Positions 352 through 24,000 of a stretch of DNA of 26,430 bases are shown here, in pieces. This stretch comes from a virus: positions 1-26,430 of IMG/VR virus record IMGVR_UViG_3300035182_001435, one strand, 5' to 3'. The notes beneath the pieces were generated by a model. That model saw only the letters and a list, made by a program, of their open reading frames with translations. It had not been told where the DNA came from and did not search any database. Numbering within the stretch: position 1 is the first letter of the stretch; every line of letters begins with the position of its first letter. Made by a program: the position numbers and the translations under genes.

Positions 352-2313
352 GTGGCAGATACCGGGACTCCACTGTGGCAGCCTCCTCAAACTCCTGATA
401 CTCTGGCTATCCGGCCTCTCACCAAAGGTGTCGTGACCGAAGGCTCAAGTGCCCTTGCGGAGCTTGGGTCTGCCCTAAGGGCCAGCGGCTACGAAGTTAC
501 ACTTCGAGGTCTGGAGCGCCAAGGTGGATGGGCTCCTGCGATGATTATTGGTGGGAAAAGCGTTCCAGTCCCGATGGTCTTTGGGAACTCAGCTGACCGG
601 GCTGAACGGAGGCTCGGTGAGCGAGTCCAGGAGATGGTTAACTTGTTCAGGGCCGATGGGAGTTCGGTTGGGGTTGTCATCACCAATCGGGCGCTCTACA
701 CCGTGGACCAGACTTCCGGCTACAAACCAGTTTATTGGAAGAAAGTCTACACCATTGTCTCCACGACTGCGAATACTGCAGTATTTGCAGGAAATCTCTC
801 AACCGACCTAATCACCAACGGTGATTGCCTTTATGATGGCTCGGAATACTACCTCATCAGCAATATTACGTATGATGTAGGAACTGACAAGACTACCATA
901 CTTGTGAATCGAAATTGGATAGTTGCTCCCACTGGCAGCGTCTATTTCATCAAGCCGTTTACAACTCCCGCCGAAGACATCATCAGTTGGACTATCGGGC
1001 GGAACAAACTGTATTTCGTGGATGGCTACACCCCGATGGTGTTTAAGTTCGACGGGGAATTTGTGAGTGGGTTTATAATGCAGGATATTTCCACCCCCCC
1101 GTCAGCCATACTCTGGACGGCGAAGTCCATCGTCAACTTCAAGGATAGACTGTTCTTCTTGAATACGGTCGAGAGCTCGCCGCCAGGGCAAGTGCAGCAG
1201 CGGGTGAGATGGTCGGAGGTCCTGAACTGGGAGACTTCCGCTGCTGCGAACTACCAGGATTTGGCGGCAAAGCCGGGCGTCGGCGTGAGTCTTGCGGCGA
1301 ATGGTGACATCATCATGGCCTTCACTGAGGACGCGCTGTATGTCGGCGAGGAAACCGAGGATGTTGATATCCCGTATGCTTTCCGAGAAGTACAGACTGG
1401 CGGGGCAGTACCTACAGGTCCGAGGGCTGTGACTCCGTTGCCGAATGGGATACTGTTTGTAGCTTCAGATGATGTGTACTTCTTTACGAACCCGAAGAAC
1501 ACCGGACCCCAGCTCAATCGAGTTGGTTCAGCAGTTGCTTCGAGTCTTCTTAACTCTGCAGTTAACCAGAGGGCAATTATTGCGAAGACTGACGTGCTCA
1601 ACTCTCGGGTGATGATCCTCACTTCGACTGAGACCGGGCAGACACTGGCACTGTGGTTCTGGAGCTACAAGCCGGATGCGTGGTCCTCGGCGGACAGCGT
1701 AGACATTCGGTCTTTATCGGTCACGGATTACACCCAGCAGTTACATTTTGATGACGTGGATCCGACGTGGACGATTGAGAACAACCCTTACGCTGAGCTT
1801 CCAATTTCGGTGCTGCAGGGGCAGATTTCCCCGCTGACTGTGTATGCGTTCGATGTCTACGGAAATCTGCTGAAGTACGACTCAACAGCCGCCCAGCACG
1901 TGTTGCCTGACGGGGGGGGTGTGATGGCGGCAAAGGCAATAGAGTCAGTGCTGGAAACACAGGATATGGACTTTGGGTTGCCGGATACTGACAAGTCGGT
2001 CATGAGTCTAGGGTTAAGGCTGATGGATGACCCAGACTCCACGAGAACCACGACGGTGAAGTTCAGAGTCGAGGGTTCCACGAATCGTGGTAAAATGTGG
2101 CGGTATCTCGGGATGCTGAGAATCGACGCAGATGATGACGAGGATGCAATTACTTTCCGGATGACAGGGCCGACAATTCGGTTTAGAATATCTACAGGTA
2201 GCGTGAGTTATGGGACCACGGCAGCATGTGCACCGTGGACGATATTGGAGCTCACTGCACGGATCCGTGCTCGTGGGATTGAGCAGCAGCGTGGCACGCT
2301 GCGGGTGAATTAA
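352..2313 (+). CDS. Virion beta-propeller-like protein, P22 gp10 / tail hub class
   Basis: This 653-residue protein is probably a structural part of the tail or neck. It is beta-rich, with repeated short blade-like units such as NKLYFVDGY, KDRLFFLNT, DALYVGEE and NGILFVASDDVYFF (about residues 220-390) and a RVRWSE motif near residue 284. This pattern is typical of the DNA stabilization / tail hub proteins of P22-like podoviruses (gp10) and related tubular tail proteins. The C-terminal third (RTTTVKFRVEGSTNRG onward) looks like a separate beta domain. The start is GTG at 352, preceded by GGGAGGG at a spacing of 8. Three giant proteins follow directly, as ejection proteins do in podoviruses. 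Family assignment is by motif style, not by alignment. Two copies of the genome-wide G-run motif lie inside the gene. Confidence 0.55.
   Translation: MADTGTPLWQPPQTPDTLAIRPLTKGVVTEGSSALAELGSALRASGYEVTLRGLERQGGWAPAMIIGGKSVPVPMVFGNSADRAERRLGERVQEMVNLFRADGSSVGVVITNRALYTVDQTSGYKPVYWKKVYTIVSTTANTAVFAGNLSTDLITNGDCLYDGSEYYLISNITYDVGTDKTTILVNRNWIVAPTGSVYFIKPFTTPAEDIISWTIGRNKLYFVDGYTPMVFKFDGEFVSGFIMQDISTPPSAILWTAKSIVNFKDRLFFLNTVESSPPGQVQQRVRWSEVLNWETSAAANYQDLAAKPGVGVSLAANGDIIMAFTEDALYVGEETEDVDIPYAFREVQTGGAVPTGPRAVTPLPNGILFVASDDVYFFTNPKNTGPQLNRVGSAVASSLLNSAVNQRAIIAKTDVLNSRVMILTSTETGQTLALWFWSYKPDAWSSADSVDIRSLSVTDYTQQLHFDDVDPTWTIENNPYAELPISVLQGQISPLTVYAFDVYGNLLKYDSTAAQHVLPDGGGVMAAKAIESVLETQDMDFGLPDTDKSVMSLGLRLMDDPDSTRTTTVKFRVEGSTNRGKMWRYLGMLRIDADDDEDAITFRMTGPTIRFRISTGSVSYGTTAACAPWTILELTARIRARGIEQQRGTLRVN
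1094..1105 (-). repeat. G-run motif copy 1
   Basis: On the minus strand CTGAC is followed by seven G and then T. It lies in the hub-like gene as the codons for Pro-Pro-Ser (ACC CCC CCG TCA). Confidence 0.8.
1907..1919 (+). repeat. G-run motif copy 2
   Basis: CTGAC followed by eight G and T, on the plus strand. It lies in the hub-like gene as Pro-Asp-Gly-Gly-Gly (CCT GAC GGG GGG GGT). Confidence 0.8.
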
Positions 2314-2328
2314 GGAGGAAGAATAATT

Positions 2329-23970: not shown

Positions 23971-23988
23971 GGGGGGCTATTGCCCCCC
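23971..23988 (-). promoter_or_regulatory. GC hairpin before the 104-residue gene
   Basis: GGGGGGC and GCCCCCC arms flank the 4-base loop TATT, giving a 7-pair stem. One arm is the edge of the 12-base C run of motif copy nine, so motif and hairpin are joined. It lies between two genes, a few bases before the AAAGGAG of the downstream gene. Confidence 0.5.
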
Positions 23989-24000
23989 CCCCCCGTCAGA
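23983..24000 (-). repeat. G-run motif copy 9, 12-base run
   Basis: On the minus strand TCTGAC is followed by twelve G and then CAATAG. It is the only copy not followed by T. The TGA is the stop codon of the 183-residue gene, and the G run forms one arm of a hairpin. Confidence 0.85.

Follow-up and report, generated by a model that had tools for sequence, protein, structure and literature searches.

Why should the copies of a short sequence alternate in orientation along viral DNA, and what could read them? The question is raised by a 26,430-base stretch (the window, meaning the whole stretch analysed), which holds nine exact copies of the 12-mer CTGACGGGGGGG, where 0.01 would be expected, on alternating strands. 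We infer, tentatively, that the copies are strand-specific landmarks for replication or recombination and that a viral protein with two helix-turn-helix (HTH) domains reads them.

The DNA polymerase of the window shares 95.8% identity with its counterpart in vir526 (BK063670.1), a tailed virus whose genome is complete, circular and 44,208 bp long. That virus came from a methanogenic enrichment culture degrading iso-alkanes and has Methanomicrobiales as its recorded host. The full genome of the window's virus should measure roughly 44 kb, about 60% of which lies in the window, and the virus is thought to infect methane-producing archaea. Its close relatives, which also include G001, G002 and G003, share about 90% DNA identity with it; G001 and G003 are fragments, as are several other contigs compared.

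The motif, its conservation and its lineage-specific versions

The nine copies, four on the plus strand and five on the minus strand, are all exact matches:

1094-1105, minus strand: copy 1, conserved in all relatives compared
1907-1918, plus strand: copy 2, conserved
8365-8376, minus strand: copy 3, conserved
10639-10650, plus strand: copy 4, conserved in G002, CTAACGGGGGGG in G001 and G003
12754-12765, minus strand: copy 5, within the candidate reader gene, kept though the flanks differ
16035-16046, plus strand: copy 6, within the DNA polymerase gene, antisense, conserved
17896-17907, minus strand: copy 7, conserved
20580-20591, plus strand: copy 8, within the exonuclease gene, antisense, conserved
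23988-23999, minus strand: copy 9

No one-mismatch copies occur in the window, and its single two-mismatch copy, CTGTGGGGGGGG at 5202, was judged unconvincing as a motif site. In copy 9 the G-run is lengthened to 12 and makes up one arm of a hairpin, and the TGA of the copy coincides with the stop codon of an ORF (23996-24547). The hairpin (G6/C12, at 23971-23999), fused to this copy, has a terminator-like look.

Comparison with the relatives indicates that the motif is under selection. The 12-mer is unchanged at all nine window sites in G002 despite a difference of about 10% in the flanks, and two site differences were found among the relatives, the point change to CTAACGGGGGGG in G001 and G003 and a site present in G002 only. 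Silent third positions within the motif are unchanged (0 of 28, versus 773 of 3568, or 21.7%, elsewhere; P = 0.001).

Could the motif come from the host, or be widespread among phages? In 199 Methanomicrobiales genomes CTGACGGGGGGG occurs at background level, similar to a reversed control, and this frequency rules out a host-derived motif. An extended 14-nt form, sought in IMG/VR, gave 30 further contigs. A widespread phage motif was rejected, since 28 of the 30 hold a single copy of the 12-mer and one holds two; a close relative among them, L060, has seven copies.

More distant relatives (31-57% protein identity) have versions of their own, which emerged when dispersed k-mers were picked for their enrichment, regardless of orientation. 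GACGGGGGAG is present in 24 copies in G239 (59,972 bp; nine on the plus strand and 15 on the minus strand) and 15 copies in G244 (44,865 bp), both near-complete genomes, and also in the G239 relatives L198 and L209; in G239 its longer form, C[TA]GACGGGGGAGA, comes near the motif of the window. GGGGGGCAGAG occurs nine times in the fragment L271 (16.7 kb), CGTGGGGGTCCAA six to eight times in L013, and CGTGGGGACAG about 20 times in L194 when one mismatch is allowed. The density across lineages is about one copy per 1.9-3 kb. Since only three detected sites are common to G239 and G244, individual sites come and go, with density and alternation maintained. A comparable G-run motif, sought in six named DUF3987 phages and about 75 IMG/VR loci, was found only in L267, L268 and L271.

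Some observations stand apart from these series. About ten mostly co-oriented copies lie within 2 kb upstream of the terminase genes of L194 (L194:80-1793; scan P = 0.0016), a cluster that is origin-like in appearance; the corresponding area of vir526 has eight copies in 6 kb (P = 0.08). GC skew tracks the direction of the genes and gave no position for an origin. In L257 (Arthronema virus TR020), GACAGGAG occurs 33 times versus 1.5 expected and AGACAGGG 25 times versus 1.15 expected, each on both strands, possibly as a further dispersed-motif system. L259 (Anabaena phage A-4L) has 11 copies of CACTAACACACA, mostly in one orientation.

Orientation and spacing of the copies on each strand

Within the window the nine copies follow the series -+-+-+-+-, each at the place given in the initial annotation, and no convincing degenerate copy breaks the series, which is intact. 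The odds of 1/128 put forward there are close to the value with strand counts fixed at five and four (about 1/126; P = 0.008 with orientations permuted), while free orientation gives 1/256.

Extended to a whole genome, the alternation fails. The complete relative vir526 has 19 copies of CTGACGGGGGGG, far more than expected, seven on the plus strand and 12 on the minus strand, in the order -+++-+-+-+-+-------, which on the circle gives 10 orientation runs versus 9.3 expected (P = 0.57); eight consecutive same-strand copies lie in a region absent from the window. The fragments G001 and G003 agree with vir526 that the series does not alternate outside the window. Strict alternation is real in the window and, by the criterion that the initial annotation itself set, is no rule for this genome. 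Orientation was also said to be independent of transcription, and this is borne out: among copies inside genes, the ratio of sense to antisense is 11:7 in vir526, 9:10 in G239 and 7:7 in G244.

Excess alternation appears in G239 (P = 0.0065), G244 (P = 0.029) and L271 (P = 0.008), and is absent from L013 and L194 by the same orientation test. The combined P value over these five other lineages, null lineages included, is 0.002, and it becomes 0.006 once the rest of vir526 enters as a null. The motifs were chosen by enrichment and orientation was tested afterwards; the P values differ between exact and relaxed forms, the relaxed ones yielding 0.0001 for G239, 0.075 for G244 and 0.038 for L271. 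Orientation in the wider virus group is not fully random. If the alternation were pure chance and the motif an unrelated binding site, the run count of the whole vir526 genome would be accounted for, but the alternation in G239, G244 and L271 and the combined value of 0.002 argue against such an explanation, which we regard as improbable.

What, then, produces the alternation? The initial annotation offered two ideas, that the sites act in pairs or that segments between copies have inverted. Inversion finds no support in G001, G002 and G003, where all blocks are colinear and run in one direction. Pairing also fares poorly: when the sites of one strand were slid along the other, most of the alternation was retained (P 0.12-0.98 in six of seven data sets, the exception being the relaxed motif of G239, where some extra alternation was left, P = 0.016), and opposite-strand neighbours were not significantly closer than in the sliding control. 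The copies are evenly spaced on each strand in three relatives. The CV of the gaps on the two strands is 0.46 and 0.47 in G239, versus about 0.9 (P = 0.010 and 0.0005), 0.66 and 0.44 in G244 (P = 0.15 and 0.03), and 0.42 and 0.25 in L271 (P = 0.04 and 0.009). The window gives a trend only (P = 0.07 on both strands), the spacing in vir526 is not significantly even on either strand (P = 0.20 and 0.43), and L194 has a co-oriented cluster of copies rather than an even series. Because most of the alternation survives sliding, so that the two strands are largely independent, and the gaps on each strand are even in G239, G244 and L271, two independent, evenly spaced sets are favoured over paired sites. 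The alternation is best understood as arising from the regular intervals within each strand and gives no evidence of pairing.

The replication module and a candidate reader

Which protein might read the motif? The genes that bear on this question are the following:

12676-13221, minus strand: candidate reader, 181 aa, with two HTH domains and a C-terminal beta domain
13218-14708, minus strand: DUF3987 helicase (phrog_14296 'DNA primase'), whose model resembles MCM AAA+ replicative helicases
14721-17300, minus strand: family A DNA polymerase fused at its N terminus to a uracil-DNA glycosylase domain (UDG-PolA)
18957-19760, minus strand: Sak4-like single-strand annealing protein (phrog_124, E 4.5e-33)
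19757-20638, minus strand: exonuclease (phrog_69, E 2.2e-16)

The most likely reader, and the best candidate, is the fast-evolving two-HTH protein. Its AlphaFold model (pLDDT 81) shows a pair of HTH units together with a beta domain, and Pfam HTH matches were obtained for its homologue in vir526. Profile matches of the HTH protein are weak (DeoR/SpoIIID-type HTHs and TALE homeodomains), a fold search gave no significant match, a search with a single HTH protein returned its own contig as the sole match, and host genomes yielded short generic HTH matches only.

The gene directly follows the helicase gene in four motif-bearing lineages (vir526, L013, G239 and G244), and no two-HTH protein was found beside the other DUF3987 helicases that were fetched. 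Both vir526 and L013 conserve a module made up of the UDG-PolA polymerase, the DUF3987 helicase and the small HTH protein; homologues of all three lie in the same region of G239, and G244 has the helicase-HTH pair. The HTH proteins of different lineages are 17-26% identical, as might be expected of a protein that tracks a changing site. L271 has the motif, with no HTH gene detected on its 16.7-kb contig, and L266/G243 has a diverged, non-adjacent HTH-like protein and no motif; the co-occurrence of motif and HTH protein is in any case confounded by common ancestry. Since the helicase model matches MCM (E 6e-11, probability 1.0), replication or recombination is the most likely setting for the motif. 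The likeness between this DUF3987 protein and MCM may also bear on the many phages that carry DUF3987.

Two further gene features may be recorded here. The related polymerase of L013 (L013:8512-11946) contains an apparent intein of nearly 300 residues, and the window has a plus-strand gene for a glutamine-rich protein (2329-4773) with internal repeats of 138 nt and 75 nt.

How might the motif and its reader work together? We propose that the motif, conserved and asymmetric, serves as a DNA landmark and would act on one strand at a time. The virus would maintain the set on each strand independently of the other, with copies a few kb apart, such that two evenly spaced sets would interleave and give the alternating look. 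The reader would be the virus's own two-HTH protein, encoded directly after the MCM-like helicase, and a bound site would mark the place and the direction in which the viral replication or recombination machinery (helicase, UDG-PolA polymerase, Sak4 protein and exonuclease) starts or restarts. The motif could then be a lineage-specific directional marker, evenly spaced per strand, from which the two-HTH reader directs the MCM-like helicase or the recombination enzymes, a possibility we put forward with some reserve. If true, it would amount to a distributed, strand-specific code for replication or recombination that has not been described before.

Comparison with known dispersed-site systems

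The motif might instead act as Chi does, by stopping an end-processing nuclease (the viral exonuclease or the host end-resection machinery), after which the strand would be passed to the annealing protein, with protection and recombination of viral DNA as the outcome. Like Chi, the motif is asymmetric, G-rich and over-represented, the virus encodes both an exonuclease and a Sak4 protein, and with regular intervals on each strand any break would cost only a limited length of DNA. Chi itself is over-represented in the host genome, and host Chi is over-represented in phages without recombinases of their own, whereas selection acts against it in phages that have recombinases and block RecBCD (PMC3784561). 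Unlike Chi, the present motif is longer, specific to virus lineages and at background level in host-order genomes. Being unused in the host order, it would need a virus-encoded reader, and a RecBCD-like reader is not known here; we consider a Chi-like role unlikely, though it keeps some appeal.

A second alternative is that the copies mark programmed nicks in one strand of the virion DNA, of the kind found in T5, phiKMV-like and tf-like phages. The genomes of such phages have similar numbers of short conserved sites, which fall both within genes and outside them and are kept across relatives, with 14 sites in the 46-kb phage tf and 13 in Rembedalsseter (PMC3517423, PMC11780129). The nick motifs of the tf/LUZ24 group, phiKMV-like phages and T5 resemble the present sites in number and spread, in genome size and in their lineage-specific sequences. 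The described systems, however, use one strand, while here many sites lie on both (4+/5- in the window, 7+/12- in vir526 and 9+/15- in G239) and are evenly spaced on each strand in several relatives. A nickase was not identified, and we think it doubtful that the copies are nick sites.

Operators or stoperators of a regulatory protein are similarly improbable. The stoperators of cluster A mycobacteriophages are asymmetric 13-nt sites, more than 20 of them genome-wide, oriented along transcription; the repressor that reads them is a monomer (183 residues in L5) combining an HTH at its N terminus with another DNA-binding domain (PMC9283540). The likeness lies in asymmetric sites across the genome and would extend to a small two-domain reader; the candidate here has 181 residues, two predicted HTHs and no close fold match. 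Unlike stoperators, the present sites ignore transcription, as the ratios of sense to antisense attest, lie mostly inside genes and occupy both strands, and no integrase was noticed on reading the vir526 annotation.

T7 primase, a zinc/TOPRIM enzyme, recognises a GTC core in the template. Primase recognition sites for the lagging strand are very improbable here: a T7-type primase could start on GTC complementary to GAC, which has a fixed tail in several motifs and is found in four of the five versions (those of the window, G239 and L194, and that of L013 on its opposite strand), and both-strand sites at intervals are what a primase needs, but GGGGGGCAGAG of L271 is without GAC, the replication proteins scanned showed neither a TOPRIM nor a zinc primase domain, and a motif of 10-12 nt is much longer than well-known primase sites.

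Archaeal origin recognition boxes, the Orc1/Cdc6 sites that load MCM, include a G-string. They resemble the present sites in being directional and in their tie, here a putative one, to an MCM-type helicase; unlike them, the present sites are not clustered at one origin, and no Orc1/Cdc6 gene was noticed in the vir526 annotation.

Short dispersed sites in phages are known mainly as regulator-binding sites, one-strand nick sites or host recombination sites. Here the sites lie on both strands, ignore transcription and, in several genomes, are evenly spaced on each strand, and their sequence changes between lineages with the density kept. Such a pattern suggests a strand-specific process acting on the DNA of this virus group, whose recorded hosts are methanogens. 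The two-HTH protein and the motif now offer a concrete candidate protein-site pair for such a process. The present sites resemble the broad class of dispersed asymmetric sites, yet they lack a defining feature, among those tested, of each of nick motifs, stoperators and Chi.
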